Below are positions 10,229 through 60,325 of a stretch of 64,000 nt of DNA, in pieces. The first letter of the stretch is position 1. Each line of letters starts with the position of its first letter. The notes beneath the pieces are model-generated. The model worked only from the letters and a program-made list of their open reading frames with translations, made no database searches and was not told the origin of the DNA. Source of the stretch: Capsulimonadaceae bacterium (lineage in GTDB: Bacteria; Armatimonadota; Armatimonadia; Armatimonadales; Capsulimonadaceae); assembly GCA_031292625.1 (NCBI GenBank), contig JARLGU010000060.1, positions 1 to 64,000 on the forward strand, in the 5' to 3' direction. The position numbers and the translations under genes are program-made.

Positions 10229-11071
10229 CTACTTGATGCTAAACGTCGCAGTCATCGCGAAACCGTCGATCTTGCCGCCTGTTCCAGCGGCCTTCCAACC
10301 GTCGGCCTGGCTATCCGAGACATTCGTCGCGTTTTGCCCCGGCGAGACAACATTGGGATTCAACCACTTGCAATGACAGTCCGCCATGATATAGTTTGCT
10401 CCGGTGTTGTGAACGGCCCCGTTCGTCGCGTAGAGATTTCCCGCCGCCGATGTCGCGCCGGGCAGCAGGCCGGTAGCGTACTGAAGGACGCCCGTGCCAG
10501 GCGTAGCCGAATACGTTCCGCCTTGCAGGGCGAGACCGTTGCCTGCCGGACTGCTGAGATAGTTGGTGGTCAATGTGTTGTTCCAACTGTCCTCATAGTA
10601 CTGAGTGATATCGACCGAGGTGCAACCCGTTACCTCAAACGCCAAGACCGTGGAAGAAGGCGCCGTGAACGACGATGCGGGATACGATACGTATGGCTGA
10701 ACATAGCTTGACGTGCCCCAGCCTGACTGATTGATGTTGAAGTTCAAGGCATAGGAAGCGCCCTTGCCCGTCGTCATATCGTCCGGACACCTGAACGTCT
10801 GAACGCTCTTGACGTACGGGTATATCTGGGCCGCCCAGCCGGCGACCGGGCTGTAGTAGTTGTTCCCTGGCGGGAATGTTTCATCGTAGTCCTGGAGATA
10901 TTGAGCCATTCCGAGGCCAATTTGCTTCTCATTGGCAAGGCAGGCCGTCTGCCGGGCTTTTTCTCGCGCCTTCGCGAACACTGGGAACAAAATAGCGGCT
11001 AATATAGCTATAATAGCGATAACTACTAGCAACTCAATAAGGGTAAATGCTGTTTGTCGAGTGTTCTTCAT
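10229..11071 (-). CDS. DUF1559 prepilin-type protein 1 (atypical)
   Basis: A 280-aa type IV pilin-like protein. The N-terminus is a class III signal (MKNTRQTA / FTLIELL) with Glu at +5 of the mature form and a long hydrophobic helix, then the AREKARQTACLANEKQIGLG segment typical of DUF1559 proteins. The usual Gly before the cleavage site is Ala here. The C-terminal motif is H-X9-DC (HNTGANYIMADC) where the family has H-X9-DG, and HCKW replaces HVKW, so two extra cysteines are present. It lies between a GntR/LacI-type regulator and a glycosidase on the same strand. AGGA lies about 8 nt before the ATG. The pilus or secretion role is inferred from the signal only. Confidence 0.85.
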   Translation of the reverse strand: MKNTRQTAFTLIELLVVIAIIAILAAILFPVFAKAREKARQTACLANEKQIGLGMAQYLQDYDETFPPGNNYYSPVAGWAAQIYPYVKSVQTFRCPDDMTTGKGASYALNFNINQSGWGTSSYVQPYVSYPASSFTAPSSTVLAFEVTGCTSVDITQYYEDSWNNTLTTNYLSSPAGNGLALQGGTYSATPGTGVLQYATGLLPGATSAAGNLYATNGAVHNTGANYIMADCHCKWLNPNVVSPGQNATNVSDSQADGWKAAGTGGKIDGFAMTATFSIK

Positions 11072-36692: not shown

Positions 36693-36722
36693 TCGTTGCC
36701 AGTCGAAAGGACGGATAAAAGA

Positions 36723-37142
36723 ATGTTTGACGAAGAGCCATTCTATTGTGAGCAAACGGGGCTTTACTGCCAGAATGCCGCTCCAATAGATCATTGGGAT
36801 GGTTGGTTGCCGGCATTGGAGTTCCTTGGAAATCTGGTGAGCTTAAAGATTGCCGGTCAGCCGCATATCGATATCCACGAATTCCTCACGCGGATACTGG
36901 CGAGCGCTTACACGGTCGCGAAATCGGAGCAGGAGTGGGAGGGAGATGTCCGTTTCGCCGGGGAACCAGGCGAGAACTTTTACGTCGCCTATATTGGCCG
37001 CGAACTGCCAGAGATAATTGATGAGGTTTACCTCGCCTGGAAGCAAGACAATAACGGACTCACCTACTTCGTTGGTCCGAAGAAAATCCGTGGGCTTCGG
37101 CATGCCGAAGGCACTGGCGAAGCGCCGCTCATACCGGGTTAA
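36723..37142 (+). CDS. Hypothetical protein
   Basis: A 139-aa acidic protein starting at ATG 36723, with AAAGGACGG about 10 nt upstream. It starts MFDEEPFYCEQTGLYCQ and has a mixed alpha/beta look (PHIDIHEFLTRILASAYTVA; GENFYVAYIGRELPEIIDE). There is no signal peptide, membrane segment or known motif. It lies at the edge of the accessory region, next to the dispersed repeat element at 37258. Function unknown. Confidence 0.55.
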   Translation: MFDEEPFYCEQTGLYCQNAAPIDHWDGWLPALEFLGNLVSLKIAGQPHIDIHEFLTRILASAYTVAKSEQEWEGDVRFAGEPGENFYVAYIGRELPEIIDEVYLAWKQDNNGLTYFVGPKKIRGLRHAEGTGEAPLIPG

Positions 37143-37257: not shown

Positions 37258-37534
37258 AAGACGGCTCCCCGGCCGCCGTGGCCGTTTTTGGAAAAGGGCC
37301 GTCACCGCGCTTCACCGCTTCACGATGTGCTCCGGGATCGAACGCTGGCTAAAAGGCCGTATGCGTGTTGACGAGGCAACGTAAATCACCGCCGTGAACG
37401 AGGCGCGGGCAAGACCGGTCCGTGACCGGCGGCCGATGGCGGCAAAAGGCCGTACGCGTGTTGACGAAGCATTGTCAATCACCGCCGTGAACGAGGCGCG
37501 AGCGAAAAAAGGCCCCGGCGGCCGGAGCCGTCCT
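37258..37534. repeat. Dispersed hairpin-ended repeat element, copy 2 (inverted)
   Basis: Homologous to the reverse complement of 12730-13000 over its whole length: GACGGCTCCCCGGCCGCC..GGCCGTTTTT at one end, GGCCCCGGCGGCCGG-AGCCGTCCT at the other. Between them lie two degenerate 72-bp units (about 37339-37410 and 37434-37503) around the self-complementary CCGGTCCGTGACCGG spacer. The outer hairpins resemble intrinsic terminators. The 428-bp gap 37143-37570 holds nothing else recognisable. Confidence 0.75.
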
Positions 37535-37570: not shown

Positions 37571-38221
37571 CTACGGCGTTTCGTTGCTTCCGTGATCCGG
37601 CCACTCTTGCCGTCTCCATGGCCCCCTGAGCACGGCGGGAAGGCGCAGGTTAAGGGCAATAGCGGCGACGCGGAGGGCGAACATGAAGGCGACGGCAATG
37701 GGACTGGCGAGGTCGGTTGGCACGTGCGTCGCGCGCAGGGCGAGGAACAGGATGGCGCCTACGAGGCAGACCGTGGCGTAAATGTCTTCGCACAGCACGA
37801 GGGGCACCTCGTTGCACAGGACATCGCGCCCGATGCCGCCGACGACTCCCGTAACGACGCCCATGAGCAGGGCGATGACCGGCGATACGCTGGCTGCCAG
37901 GGCCTTTTGGACTCCGATCGTCGTGGCGACCGCGAGCCCTCCGGCGTCGGCGATCAGCAGGATGCGGCGGGGCACGGTGTGGCGTTGCGCGGTAAGAAAA
38001 GTCGCGACGGATGCCAGTGTGACGAGTACGATATAGGTTGAATCGCGCACCCAGAAGACGGGGCCGTGCTGCAGGACCATATCCCGCAGCGTCCCGCCGC
38101 CGAGCGCGGTGACGAATCCGATCGCGCAAGCGCCGAACACGTCCATGCCTCGCTCGCGCGCCTCAAGCGCGCCGCTGACAGCGAAAACGATGACTCCAAG
38201 CAAGTCGAGGTAATGGAACAT
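37571..38221 (-). CDS. TRIC-type (UPF0126) cation channel membrane protein
   Basis: A 216-aa integral membrane protein with seven predicted hydrophobic segments and the duplicated glycine-rich motif of the family: FAVSGALEARERGMDVFGACAIGFVTALGGGTLRD in the first half and GVVGGIGRDVL in the second. Bacterial TRIC homologues form trimeric K+-permeable channels. Start at ATG 38221, which begins MFHYLDLLGVIVFAVSGAL; the longer frame adds a hydrophilic extension with no support. Its 5' half and upstream region (37926-38371) are duplicated at 39958-40403. Confidence 0.88.
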   Translation of the reverse strand: MFHYLDLLGVIVFAVSGALEARERGMDVFGACAIGFVTALGGGTLRDMVLQHGPVFWVRDSTYIVLVTLASVATFLTAQRHTVPRRILLIADAGGLAVATTIGVQKALAASVSPVIALLMGVVTGVVGGIGRDVLCNEVPLVLCEDIYATVCLVGAILFLALRATHVPTDLASPIAVAFMFALRVAAIALNLRLPAVLRGPWRRQEWPDHGSNETP

Positions 38222-38371
38222 AGGCGAGTCTTTACAAGCGTGTGGCGGCGCGCGATCTTGGACCGAGCGCCAATTGCCAGTCACTCAGTATTCGCGTCTC
38301 GTAGGCCGTCCTCCTGCCTGCCCCGCCGCACGCAAGGCCCAGGGATCCGTCCATATGTTGGGCTAAGCGCC
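37926..38371. repeat. 446-bp duplication, copy A
   Basis: Covers about 150 bp upstream of the TRIC gene and its first about 98 codons. It matches 39958-40403 with no length difference and roughly 15 substitutions. The copies are in the same orientation, 2,032 bp apart. Confidence 0.9.
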
Positions 38372-38790: not shown

Positions 38791-39423
38791 TTAGTTGTCT
38801 ACTTCGCCTTTTTTACATTTTATCAGAAAGAATGGGTAATTCTCAGTAATATCTACGATTTCAAACAATCCAGCCTTGTCAAACTCAGCGTGAATTGATT
38901 CTTTATCATAAAAGAACATCTTGACTCCCTTAAATATTTCGTAGCGATCCTTGCTGATAAATTGGCCTGTGCCGTAAGTCTGGGCTTCTTTCGAAATAGC
39001 TGTAAAAAACATATAACCGTCGTCTGACAGTTGGTTGTAGCAGTCACTGATTAGCTTTTGTCGTTCGCTACTGTCCAGTAAATGAATTAAGGCATAGCAA
39101 AATATTCCATCGTAACGGCAATTGTCGAACGGCATATCAGCAACAGAACCGTGATAGATAGTCATATCTGCGCCGTAATGTTTTCTGGCTAGTTCAATAG
39201 CAGTCTTAGATATTTCAATTCCGGTTACAGTTATTCCATTGTCCCTGAAAACTTGAGCATTTCGTCCGTAACCGATACCAGGAATTAGAATATTCTTGAT
39301 TGACATTTTTATAAAAAAGTTCTTTGTCAATGCAGCAGAATTGGATGGCTCAAATCCCCACATTTCCTGTTTTTCGATAAAGCTGGATTCCCAAAACTCA
39401 GGTTTTTCGATTTTATCTATCAT
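38791..39423 (-). CDS. Class I SAM-dependent methyltransferase, probably acquired
   Basis: A 210-aa Rossmann-fold methyltransferase. The SAM-binding glycine motif is ILIPGIGYGRNAQVF (E/D-x-G-x-G-like), the acidic end of beta-2 is GIEIS, and motif IV is YDGIFCYALIHLL. The family resembles thiopurine/tellurite-resistance-type small-molecule methyltransferases; substrate unknown. The gene is visibly AT-rich with AAA, TTT and ATA codons, unlike its GC-rich neighbours, and lies between the two copies of a 446-bp duplication. Together these suggest horizontal transfer. No clear ribosome binding site before ATG 39423 on inspection. Confidence 0.85.
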   Translation of the reverse strand: MIDKIEKPEFWESSFIEKQEMWGFEPSNSAALTKNFFIKMSIKNILIPGIGYGRNAQVFRDNGITVTGIEISKTAIELARKHYGADMTIYHGSVADMPFDNCRYDGIFCYALIHLLDSSERQKLISDCYNQLSDDGYMFFTAISKEAQTYGTGQFISKDRYEIFKGVKMFFYDKESIHAEFDKAGLFEIVDITENYPFFLIKCKKGEVDN

Positions 39424-39957
39424 AACGTTTTTTTAATATATCTGATTAAGTGCGTGCTGAGTAAATAAGCACACTGTCACCAACACGCGTGAAGTTGTAA
39501 TTCGTAGAATATTGGCTGGTGGACTGCTCCCCGAAAATGACGCAAACAGTTTAGGTGAGCCCACATACTGTTTGCGCTCGCCTGTTCGAACTCGCCAGGA
39601 GCCGAATATCCGAAAGCCGGCTGCATCCGCTTCGTCCAAGGAGAGCGCTGCTTCCCAGCAGCGGAAAACCGCAGGATCAGTAGATTTTGCCGCTCGTGAT
39701 CGTCGATGAACACAAAAATTACGCCGTCATCTCGATGTAGTTGCGTGGTTATTTCGACGCATGAATGTTAATATCCTCCGTTTTCGACGCAATCAACTGC
39801 CTAATTGTGTAAATGCTCCGAAATGCCGGATCGTAATCGCGAGATCCTGCGCACTTCGCCTTAGTCGATGCCCAGTCAAGGAATGGTGCGCGATGGGGGC
39901 AGACTATTCGTTGTAGGTGCAACGACAAACGAAGGTAGAGCGAGCGGAATTGCACCC
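39424..39957. other. Gene-free flank of the methyltransferase island
   Basis: Base composition is intermediate. Several short frames exist on both strands, none with recognisable protein character. Possibly eroded cargo of the acquired segment. Confidence 0.4.
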
Positions 39958-40253
39958 GCGACCGCGAGCCCTCCGGCGTCGGCGATCAGCAGGATGCGGC
40001 GGGGCACGGCGTGGCGTTGCGCGGTAAGAAAAGTCGCGACAGATGCCAGTGTGACGAGTACGATATAGGTTGAATCGCGCACCCAGAAGACGGGGCCGTG
40101 CTGCAGGACCATATCCTGCAGCGTCCCGCCGCCGAGCGCGGTGACGAATCCGATCGCGCAAGCGCCGAACACGTCCATGCCTCGCTTGCGCGCCTCAAGC
40201 GCGCCGCTAACCGCGAAAACGATAACTCCGAGCAGGTCGAGGTAATGGAACAT
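39876..40253 (-). pseudogene. Truncated TRIC channel gene copy
   Basis: Starting at ATG 40253 the frame repeats the first about 98 residues of the intact TRIC protein (MFHYLDLLGVIVFAVSGALE ... LLIADAGGLAVA) with few changes. At the repeat edge (39958) it switches to about 27 unrelated residues ending PPSRTIP. Roughly half of the channel, including the second glycine motif, is missing, so it cannot form a normal channel. It keeps the upstream region and may still be transcribed. Confidence 0.85.
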
Positions 40254-40403
40254 AGGCGAGTCTTTACAAGCGTGTGGCGGCGTGCGATCCTGGACCGAGC
40301 GCTGATTGCCAGTCACTCAGTATTCGCGTCTCGTAGGTCGTCCTCCTGCCTGCCCCGCCGCACGCAAGGCCCAGGAATCCGTCCATATGTTGGGCTAAGC
40401 GCC
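39958..40403. repeat. 446-bp duplication, copy B
   Basis: Direct repeat of 37926-38371. The shared edges are GCGACCGCGAGCC on the left and GGGCTAAGCGCC on the right; flanking sequence is unrelated. It carries the truncated TRIC copy. Confidence 0.9.
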
Positions 40404-40690
40404 CAGAATCATCACATGGGGGCTCAATGGGGCAATGACTGCGTAGCGGCGCGTGGCCAACGCTTGTCGTCTACCTCGGTTCCGCATTGAGCTCGCCGGC
40501 TGATTTTGAAAACCTGCGCGAGGCGAGGCCAGCCGAGAAACTCGGGAACAGGACAGCGCCCTTCGACTCCGGGAAGTTCCCCAATATCACCTGCGGTTCT
40601 CGAAGGCGCAGGATCTCACAAGCGGGACGAGAGGTCTTCCGCACTGCATATTATTCCAAGTGCGTCCCCCAGAAAAATATCACAGATCTC

Positions 40691-40720
40691 TTGACACAAC
40701 GTGGGCAATTGGGATACACT
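40691..40720 (+). promoter_or_regulatory. Sigma-70-like promoter of a stand-alone transcript
   Basis: TTGACA (40691-40696), an 18-nt spacer and TACACT (40715-40720). This is the same -35/spacing/-10 combination as at tyrS (59073-59102). Transcription should start near 40727. No convincing gene follows before the terminator at 40929-40970. Confidence 0.7.
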
Positions 40721-40726
40721 GTTGTT

Positions 40727-40970
40727 GATATACCTTAATGCATACCTGGATAGTGCAGATTAGCTGTAAGGTTTGGCGTTGTCGTTACTCGGAGCGACGG
40801 CGGCAAACTGCGGTGATGACAATGGGGTCTCGTCGCAGGCTTTTGACAAATTGCACAGATGTGCGGCGCTGAATGTACGCGGGGAATGACGGGCCCTTCG
40901 GATGTTCTTATTGGCGCTTGCACGACGACCGCCGGTGAACTCGAGAGGGTGGTTTCACCGGCGGTTTTTT
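40727..40970 (+). ncRNA. Candidate structured small RNA, about 245 nt
   Basis: The interval is bounded by a good promoter and a strong intrinsic terminator. Inside, 40770-40809 folds into a hairpin of 16 Watson-Crick or G-T pairs with one internal G-G mismatch and the 6-nt loop ACTCGG. A second hairpin pairs 40810-40816 (GCGGTGA) with 40830-40836 (TCGTCGC). A short third stem lies at 40853-40864. I do not recognise 6S, SRP, tmRNA or RNase P motifs. Alternative: a 44-codon basic frame runs from ATG 40738 to 40872. No gene follows on this strand, so it is not an obvious riboswitch leader. Confidence 0.5.
40929..40970 (+). terminator. Intrinsic terminator
   Basis: CCGCCGGTGAA (40929-40939) pairs perfectly with TTCACCGGCGG (40954-40964) across a 14-nt loop and is followed by TTTTTT (40965-40970). 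Oriented for plus-strand transcription. The opposite strand lacks a T run, so it does not serve the convergent gene at 41001 as well. Confidence 0.85.
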
Positions 40971-41000
40971 GCGTCGGCCTGACGCTGGCCGAGCGTCTCT

Positions 41001-41825
41001 TTACTTGGCTTGGGGAGTTGTCGTTTCCAGCCTGAGGAATCCCATGCCTTGCGGCGAAAGATCCTCCGCTCCAGCTGGAACGGGCGCCCAGTCGAGCGCA
41101 ACACGCATGAGGCCCTGTGCGGTGGGAGAGTAGTCGTATCGCAGGAAGTTGGCTCGCACGGATGTGGACGGTGTAAACTGGGTCATTTCCAGCGTCCCCA
41201 GGATTGTGGTCGCCGGGATCGCCATATCGAGCCGCCATCCCGTTGGCGTAGCGACCGCCAGGCTTCTTAGGCCGTCGACGTTCCATCCAGGTTCGCGTTT
41301 GAGCTGGTGGGCGATCACGCCGTCGACGAGGCGGAATACGTCGTCGGATTGGGCAGTCCCGGTGACCCAGAACGCCTCGTCTCGAATATCGTTGCTCGGC
41401 GTCGCGAGGATTTCCAGCCAATGTGCGCCGACTCCGCGCGGATCGATGAGTATTCCCACGCAATCTTCCGAGGCGAGATCGGCATCGTGTCCGTGGATGT
41501 TGCCGTAGGGAAGAAGCTTACCGCCGACCTCAAACCGCACGTAAAGGTAATCGGCGTCCCAGAGCAGCTTGACGTTCGTCGGCAGCGCGACTTCGGGGGC
41601 GGGAGAATCCAGTGCGAGGCCTAACGAATCGACCACGGCTGCGGACGCCCATGCGGGATCGTCCGCCGACGCATCGACACGCGGCGTCAACGTGGTGTTG
41701 GGCACTTCCAGAACCGGCCGGATTGCCGGTATGTGCACAGGAAGCGTTACGTCCGCGAACGCCGTTTGGTGCATTCCGGCGATCACAAGTGCGACGATTA
41801 GAAATAGGGGCGATGTCCGCAACAT
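41001..41825 (-). CDS. Secreted CBM9-type carbohydrate-binding protein
   Basis: A 274-aa exported protein with signal peptide MLRTSPLFLIVALVIAGMHQTAFA. The mature part is a single CBM9-like sandwich: RVDASADDPAWASAAVV at the start, LLWDADYLYVRFEVGGKLL in the middle and GWRLDMAIPATTI near the end, the order seen in CBM9 modules of xylanases. There is no catalytic domain, so it may be a stand-alone glycan-binding protein. It lies 64 bp after the GH13 gene on the same strand and is probably co-transcribed with it. Confidence 0.75.
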   Translation of the reverse strand: MLRTSPLFLIVALVIAGMHQTAFADVTLPVHIPAIRPVLEVPNTTLTPRVDASADDPAWASAAVVDSLGLALDSPAPEVALPTNVKLLWDADYLYVRFEVGGKLLPYGNIHGHDADLASEDCVGILIDPRGVGAHWLEILATPSNDIRDEAFWVTGTAQSDDVFRLVDGVIAHQLKREPGWNVDGLRSLAVATPTGWRLDMAIPATTILGTLEMTQFTPSTSVRANFLRYDYSPTAQGLMRVALDWAPVPAGAEDLSPQGMGFLRLETTTPQAK

Positions 41826-44178: not shown

Positions 44179-45195
44179 ATGAGCGTAAGTATTACAGAAA
44201 TTGCAAAGCGGCTGAATGTCTCCCATTCCACGGTTTCGCGGGTCTTAAACGGTCGCGGTAAACAGTATGCCTCCGAGCAAACGGCGCGGCAGATCCGCGA
44301 CCTGGCGGTTGAGCTGAACTATCGGCCAAACCGGCTTGCGAGCGGTCTCTTGCGCGGCAAGACAAATCTGATCGGCGTCGCAATGGGCCGCTGCAACAGT
44401 TCGTACGCTGGGGGGATCCTCGAAGGCGTACGCGCTGCATGCGAGGACATCGGCTATCAGGTTCTCCTTGGACGCGCCAAGAACGACGAACTAAGCGAGA
44501 GCAAGCAAGTTCGGTTGTTGCTTGACTACAAGGTAGACGGATTAATCTGCGTCGCGGATGGCTGGGGACACGAGCGGATTCTTCACTGGCTTGACGAAGT
44601 CGTGATGCGGGACCTTCCTTGCGCCGTGATCGACTCGCGCGCCTATGCCGATAGAGTCGATTGCGTGGTGACCGACGATGTCGCGGGAGCCGCAATGGCG
44701 ACCCGGCATCTGATCGAACTGGGGCATCGGAGAATAGCCCATGTCGGAGGCGGCGATATTCGCACGACGTCCACGGACCGCCGCAACGGTTACCTGCGCG
44801 CTCTGGCCGATGCGGGCATCGCAAGCGACCCTGCGCTAATACAGGGCTGCGCGTACTCAAAGGAGTCCGCAACCGCGGCGATTCAAACCATTCTTGAGGT
44901 TCGCCCGCTTCCCACCGCTGTATTTGTCGCGAGCGACGGCGATGCGTATTGGGTCTGGCAAACGCTGAATGATCGCGGAATACGGGTACCCGACGATATC
45001 GCGCTCGTGGGATACGGAAATCTCGACGTAGGCCTTGGCCTCGGCCTGACGACGGTCGATCAAGCGCCTCAGACGCTCGGGGCGATGGCCGTGAAGAGGG
45101 TTCTCAATCGGATTGACCGGCCTGGCGCGCCTCACGAGGTTGTGGAGTTGAACACGCAATTGATTGTACGGCGAAGTTCAGCCGCGCGTGCGTAG
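44179..45195 (+). CDS. LacI-family transcriptional regulator 2
   Basis: A 338-aa repressor. The N-terminal HTH and hinge (VSITEIAKRLNVSHSTVSRVLNG ... LAVELNYRPNRLASGLLRGKT) are canonical, followed by the sugar-binding domain (NLIGVAMGRCNSSYAGGILEG, VVTDDVAGAAMATRHLIELGHRRIAHVGG, VPDDIALVGYGNLDVG). First gene of a four-gene plus-strand operon with gaps of 18, 11 and 17 bp to the prepilin, BNR and GH95 genes. Two copies of its probable operator flank its own promoter. The effector sugar is probably a product of GH95 action. Confidence 0.92.
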   Translation: MSVSITEIAKRLNVSHSTVSRVLNGRGKQYASEQTARQIRDLAVELNYRPNRLASGLLRGKTNLIGVAMGRCNSSYAGGILEGVRAACEDIGYQVLLGRAKNDELSESKQVRLLLDYKVDGLICVADGWGHERILHWLDEVVMRDLPCAVIDSRAYADRVDCVVTDDVAGAAMATRHLIELGHRRIAHVGGGDIRTTSTDRRNGYLRALADAGIASDPALIQGCAYSKESATAAIQTILEVRPLPTAVFVASDGDAYWVWQTLNDRGIRVPDDIALVGYGNLDVGLGLGLTTVDQAPQTLGAMAVKRVLNRIDRPGAPHEVVELNTQLIVRRSSAARA

Positions 45196-59072: not shown

Positions 59073-59102
59073 TTGACATTCAAACGACGCCTGTGCTACA
59101 CT
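59073..59102 (+). promoter_or_regulatory. tyrS promoter, leaderless
   Basis: TTGACA (59073-59078), 18-nt spacer, TACACT (59097-59102), then 8 nt to ATG 59111. The transcript would begin at or within 1-2 nt of the start codon, so there is no room for a T-box or other attenuator. The remaining part of the 333-bp gap 58778-59110 holds nothing recognisable. Confidence 0.75.
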
Positions 59103-59110
59103 GACGCGAG

Positions 59111-60325
59111 ATGAATATTGAGGAGCAATTTGAGGCCCTGGCGCGCGGCGCCGTCGAGATCGTGCCTCGCGAATCCCTGCTCGAAAAACTCAGGCAGTCA
59201 CAGGCTAGTGGTCGTCCTCTTCAAATTAAGCTTGGGCTTGACCCAACCGCCCCGGACATCCACCTCGGCAACGCCGTCGTTTTGCGTAAATTGCGGCAGT
59301 TTCAAGACGCAGGGCATGAAGTAACCGTTATCATCGGCGACTTCACGGCGATGATTGGCGACCCGACCGGGCGCTCGGAAGCGCGAAAGCAGCTGAGCCC
59401 GGAGCAAGTGAGCGCCAACGCAAAGACCTATGCGGATCAGTACCACAAGATCCTCGATCCCGCGAAGACGAAAGTCGTATTCAACAGCGACTGGCTTGGC
59501 AAACTCAACCTTTACGATATCGTAAAGTTGATGGCGAAAACCACCGTTGCGCGGATCCTCGAACGCGACGATTTTACGAATCGCTTCAATAACGGACTGC
59601 CGATCCACGCCCACGAGCTTCTCTATCCTTTATGCCAGGGCTATGATTCCGTCGTGCTGAAGTCCGACGTCGAAATCGGCGGGACCGAGCAGAAGTTTAA
59701 CATCTTGATGGGCCGTGACCTGCAGCGCGAGGACGGCGTTGCCGTGCCTCAGGTCGGACTGTTCATGCCGTTGCTGGTTGGCCTCGACGGCATCGACAAG
59801 ATGTCGAAAAGCAAAGGCAACGCCGTCGGCATCGACGAGCCGCCGTTGACGATGTTCGAGAAGCTGATGTCGATTTCCGACACCATGATGACGCAGTATT
59901 ACGAGCTGTGCACGGATGTTCCCCTCGCGGATGTTGCGCTTCTTTGCGATGCGGGCAAGACGCATCCGAAGCTGGCCAAGAAGCGGCTTGCGCGGGAGAT
60001 CGTGAGCATCTACCACGGAGCGGATGCCGCCCAGGCCGCGGACGCGGAGTGGGAGCACATTCACGCCGAGCGCGAACTGCCGGACGATATTCCGGAGTTT
60101 GTCGTTCCCGCGGAACTGCTGGCTAGCGGACCGGTGCGCATTGTCCAGATCGCTATAGCGGCCGGACTGGCCGCGACCGGCGGCGAGGCCAAGCGGTTGG
60201 TTCAGCAGGGCGGAATAAGTTTTAACGGTGAAAAGGTGAAGGATACGGCCGCGACGATTGAAATCACGAACGGCGATATCTTGAGCAGCGGACGGCGAAG
60301 GTTCGTCAAACTGGTACGCAAATAA
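59111..60325 (+). CDS. tyrS: Tyrosyl-tRNA synthetase
   Basis: A 404-aa class I synthetase that charges tRNA-Tyr. The Rossmann domain has KLGLDPTAPDIHLGN (HIGH-like HLGN) and KMSKS at residues 230-234 (DKMSKSKGNAVGI). The C-terminal about 65 residues are an S4 RNA-binding domain (AKRLVQQGGISFNGEKVKD). The form with an IGGTEQKFNILMGRDLQRE segment and this length is of the TyrZ-like type. Transcription starts at the ATG. An ECF sigma gene follows after 5 bp, so the two are co-transcribed. Confidence 0.96.
   Translation: MNIEEQFEALARGAVEIVPRESLLEKLRQSQASGRPLQIKLGLDPTAPDIHLGNAVVLRKLRQFQDAGHEVTVIIGDFTAMIGDPTGRSEARKQLSPEQVSANAKTYADQYHKILDPAKTKVVFNSDWLGKLNLYDIVKLMAKTTVARILERDDFTNRFNNGLPIHAHELLYPLCQGYDSVVLKSDVEIGGTEQKFNILMGRDLQREDGVAVPQVGLFMPLLVGLDGIDKMSKSKGNAVGIDEPPLTMFEKLMSISDTMMTQYYELCTDVPLADVALLCDAGKTHPKLAKKRLAREIVSIYHGADAAQAADAEWEHIHAERELPDDIPEFVVPAELLASGPVRIVQIAIAAGLAATGGEAKRLVQQGGISFNGEKVKDTAATIEITNGDILSSGRRRFVKLVRK

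Follow-up and report, generated by a model that had tools for sequence, protein, structure and literature searches.

Does an interval that carries a strong promoter and an intrinsic terminator, with no gene following on the same strand, encode an RNA that acts on its own? The question is raised by positions 40691 to 40970 of the 64-kb window (the whole stretch of DNA that was analysed), an interval that a preliminary description had put forward as a candidate novel small RNA. We favor the possibility, at a probability of roughly 0.55, that it is a lineage-restricted, free-standing small RNA (sRNA) gene whose product is probably a base-pairing regulator, with predicted transcription and putative pairing, Hfq dependence and targets.

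Table 1. Features of the candidate locus and the other strong promoter matches of the window
Feature	Position	Strand	Details
Sigma-70-type promoter, TTGACA-N18-TACACT	40691-40720	+	10/12 consensus matches
-35 hexamer TTGACA	40691-40696	+	18-nt spacer to -10 hexamer
-10 hexamer TACACT	40715-40720	+	
Predicted transcript	40727-40970	+	about 242-244 nt; start inferred from -10 position
5' arm, weakly structured	40727-40769	+	~43 nt; fold z = +0.2
Hairpin A	40770-40809	+	16 pairs, one G-G mismatch; -22.0 kcal/mol; z = -4.5
Hairpin B	40808-40838	+	12 pairs, one bulged T; -14.5 kcal/mol; z = -3.2
Linker	40839-40860	+	between hairpins B and C
Hairpin C, long imperfect stem	40861-40923	+	-25.1 kcal/mol; z = -2.0
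Intrinsic terminator	40927-40970	+	12-bp stem, then six T; z = -5.1
Strong promoter match	44122		upstream of LacI-type regulator gene (44179)
Strong promoter match	59073-59102		5' of tyrS (59111); both hexamers identical to those at 40691
Strong promoter match	19636	-	ahead of LacI-type regulator gene
Strong promoter match	12468	-	ahead of GntR-type regulator gene
Strong promoter match	10413	-	within a gene

A promoter paired with a terminator

When both strands of the window were scanned, six promoter matches of at least 10/12 were found, that at 40691 included. Four of the other five stand immediately or closely 5' of genes, which makes the motif a meaningful one here, and from these positions the organism appears to use promoters of this type. 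The LacI-type regulator at 44179 was named by Pfam; the second LacI-type gene, the GntR-type gene and tyrS are what we take them to be from reading their sequences. Among the strong matches of the window, that at 40691 stands alone in having no gene of its own. At tyrS (59073-59111) and at the GntR-type regulator (12468-12432, minus strand), the start codon follows the -10 box after only 7-9 nt, and these spacings suggest that the organism makes leaderless or nearly leaderless mRNAs.

The terminator was missed by a standard scan (loop limit 8) and came to light in a wider one. Its stem (40927-40938/40955-40966) consists of 12 contiguous pairs, one of them G-T, rather than the 11 bp first described; the six T that had been reported are present (40965-40970), four of them outside the stem. 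It is the stronger of two terminators of such strength in the window, its hairpin has no T-run on the minus-strand side, and there is no upstream plus-strand gene for it to serve. The originally proposed arrangement of a promoter followed after some 245 nt by a terminator is thus upheld, and a housekeeping-type promoter in this position would start an RNA of ~242 nt ending at the terminator. Transcription of the unit is likely.

The pairing of promoter with terminator is the strongest evidence that the locus is more than chance. With the unit defined as a promoter of at least 10/12 plus, within 350 nt, a stem of 9 bp or more that runs into five or more T, exactly one was found on both strands of the window and none in 200 Markov-simulated windows, a figure that is somewhat flattering as the thresholds were chosen after the feature had been seen. 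This joint occurrence argues against the very unlikely reading that the promoter- and terminator-like sequences yield no transcript at all, or that the terminator is a mere barrier between convergent units, even though a match to the promoter consensus is no proof of function and one match in six (that at 10413) lies inside a gene.

Coding potential and fold of the predicted transcript

The transcript could instead be a short mRNA, read from a 44-codon frame (40738-40872) or a 21-codon frame (40873-40938) and perhaps wholly or nearly leaderless. We consider this improbable. Near-leaderless starts do seem usual in the window (tyrS and the GntR-type regulator), the ATG of the 44-codon frame lies ~11 nt from the inferred transcript start, and the third positions of the 21-codon frame are G+C-rich. 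When scored against codon usage taken from ten of the window's genes, however, the 44-codon frame gave -0.51 bits per codon, below anything seen in real-gene pieces of the same length (mean +0.28, sd 0.15, minimum -0.27), while the 21-codon frame (-0.12) came near the genes' 5% limit and fell within the random range. Furthermore, neither frame had a Pfam match over the cut-off or a clear Shine-Dalgarno sequence, and no convincing homologue of the 44- or the 21-aa peptide was found in relatives. Codon log-odds were also negative for the minus-strand frames tested. The transcript region looks non-coding by these statistics, although the score of the 21-codon frame fits either reading, and the 44-codon frame, which the preliminary description had singled out as the protein that could overturn an RNA reading, scores as non-coding DNA does.

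The predicted RNA would consist of a free 5' arm, three hairpins, the terminator hairpin and a short U tail. Taken as a whole (40726-40975), it folds with z = -3.2 against dinucleotide shuffles, with one of 200 shuffles folding as well, and after correction for G+C content only 4 of the 3188 240-nt windows taken from both strands of the 64 kb had a lower energy. Most of this excess is carried by hairpin A and the terminator; hairpin A alone is less rare, since 128 of 63960 overlapping 40-nt windows are equally stable. It had been described correctly, down to its several G-T pairs; the mismatch is G40776/G40803, the apical loop has six bases and the pair probabilities of the core exceed 0.98. 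A second stem had also been seen, but its length of 7 bp was an understatement of hairpin B, the first bases of which are common to the outermost pairs of hairpin A. Hairpin C had been overlooked.

Relatives, known families and the neighbourhood

No Rfam family matched anywhere in the window at the gathering threshold, and none matched over 421 nt at the locus even at E <= 10, whether 6S, SRP, RNase P, tmRNA or a riboswitch or leader; this agrees with the initial description, in which no known RNA class had been recognised. 6S RNA was considered and rejected: RF00013 gave no match at E <= 10, the fold is different and the genome's own 6S RNA is elsewhere (C38:75744-75929, 56.9 bits). The small bacterial SRP RNA was rejected too, with no RF00169 match here and the genome's gene located elsewhere (C34:246181-246280, 64.2 bits). 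As a side observation, 6S RNA, such as that on C38, passed the cut-off in some genomes of the set but not in others, and one relative (G019, C383) has a second, weaker 6S-like match.

The search of related genomes called for in the preliminary description found no homologue. BLASTN matched only the locus itself in its own genome and no homologue in 60 relatives; the best other match had E 0.014 over 27 nt. A covariance model, built from a single sequence and so of limited reach, was run against the order and against 291 genomes of the phylum and found no homologue; its matches (E 0.003 to 3), where inspected, lay in or overlapped long open frames, lacked a conserved hairpin C and are put down to chance. 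Exact patterns were found neither in GTDB contigs (30-mer) nor in viral contigs (26-mer and 21-mer), the phages and plasmids searched held no relative, and the amylase gene used as bait in GTDB contigs led to none. In the absence of a homologue there is no covariation to count. Since the family was represented by six other genomes, none from the same genus, we take the RNA to be not conserved at the family level in any form visible to these searches, a result compatible with conservation within the genus. What was first proposed thus survives in part: the stand-alone, structured, noncoding unit is borne out by the promoter-terminator pair, the fold, the codon statistics and the Rfam searches, but a novel class with conserved stems is not, as no homologue was found. 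That the locus encodes a structured RNA of an undescribed, genus-confined class, with three hairpins under selection for a specific function, is improbable.

As first described, the locus lies at the edge of an accessory region, where, from the gene content on either side, a rearranged stretch meets a group of sugar-metabolism genes. Upstream, positions 39958-40403 are a 446-bp direct duplication of 37926-38371 (96.6% identical). The duplicated piece carries the 5' part of a Gly_transporter gene (PF03458, TRIC-type), and in the second copy (39876-40316, minus strand) the frame is truncated and ends in an unrelated C-terminus. Between the copies is a low-G+C methyltransferase gene (38791-39423), and the DNA of 40404-40690 is found nowhere else in the genome. 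Farther upstream, two 60-nt repeat copies (37351-37503; 93-nt spacing, 90% identical) are flanked by terminator-like stems at 37270-37284 (plus strand) and 37529-37511 (minus strand), which probably terminate genes 36696-37142 and 37571-38284, a converging pair.

Such a setting could have left a relic: a promoter or leader that the nearby rearrangement deprived of its gene, by loss or displacement, and that now gives a terminated, functionless transcript. The duplication immediately upstream, with the methyltransferase gene between its copies, and the lack of conservation in relatives are in line with this idea. We nevertheless hold it to be unlikely: decay should have blurred the promoter, the terminator and the stems, all of which are still intact and strong, and no riboswitch or leader family was matched.

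Downstream, the absence of a following plus-strand gene was confirmed. The next gene (41001-41825, minus strand), which is CBM9-like, is convergent, and it and an alpha-amylase gene converge on the RNA locus. The RNA could act in cis as an antisense RNA on the 3' end of the CBM9 mRNA, which would run into the region because it is without a U-tailed terminator of its own; the window showed no minus-strand terminator (stem of at least 9 with a T-run), and 31 nt separate the RNA end from the CBM9 stop codon. This, too, is very improbable, as the two RNAs would overlap in an untranslated tail, both transcripts could stop at the shared hairpin, and CBM9 homologues in three family members (35-41% identity) are followed by other sequence.

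A putative base-pairing regulator and its known counterparts

Returning to the sRNA gene that we favor, its most likely mode of action would be in trans, with the 5' arm, as a possible seed region, or the linker pairing with mRNAs, and the Hfq of the genome perhaps acting as a partner. Hfq is encoded (PF17209, 89.1 bits, C46:386212-386406), and its presence, together with a free 5' arm as a natural seed, makes a base-pairing regulator the default hypothesis. Typical Hfq-bound tails have more free T than the four counted here. In a duplex scan confined to the 42 gene starts of the window, none scored better than shuffled controls.

There is precedent for predictions of this kind being confirmed. 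In Sinorhizobium meliloti, transcripts were detected for 14 of 18 intergenic regions that had been chosen chiefly on promoter, terminator and conservation, and most of those predictions were also conserved (PMC2573895). The candidate described here has no homologue in its family, order or phylum and thus no conservation backing a function, so a lower rate of confirmation is to be expected. As an sRNA candidate it is credible but unremarkable, and nothing beyond the usual small-RNA regulation is suggested. Should it be transcribed, its bacterial group, for which a literature search turned up no sRNA study, would gain a defined sRNA gene that could serve as a test case for lineage-specific sRNAs; otherwise little would change, as most bacteria have many such genes.

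With regard to known systems, a weak likeness to the Burkholderia sRNA Bp1_684 (RF02421) lies on the opposite (minus) strand and, at 20.7 bits against a gathering score of 44, is attributed to chance. 6S RNA (RF00013) is likewise a stand-alone noncoding RNA of ~200 nt, but it forms one long stem with a central bubble whereas the candidate would form a row of hairpins. The closest counterparts are intergenic trans-acting sRNAs, which are often Hfq-associated. The candidate differs from these in lacking conservation, in being longer and more structured than many, and in being a prediction from sequence; it resembles them in its sigma-70-type promoter, its intergenic position, its noncoding character, its intrinsic terminator and its size (50-300 nt), and its genome encodes Hfq.
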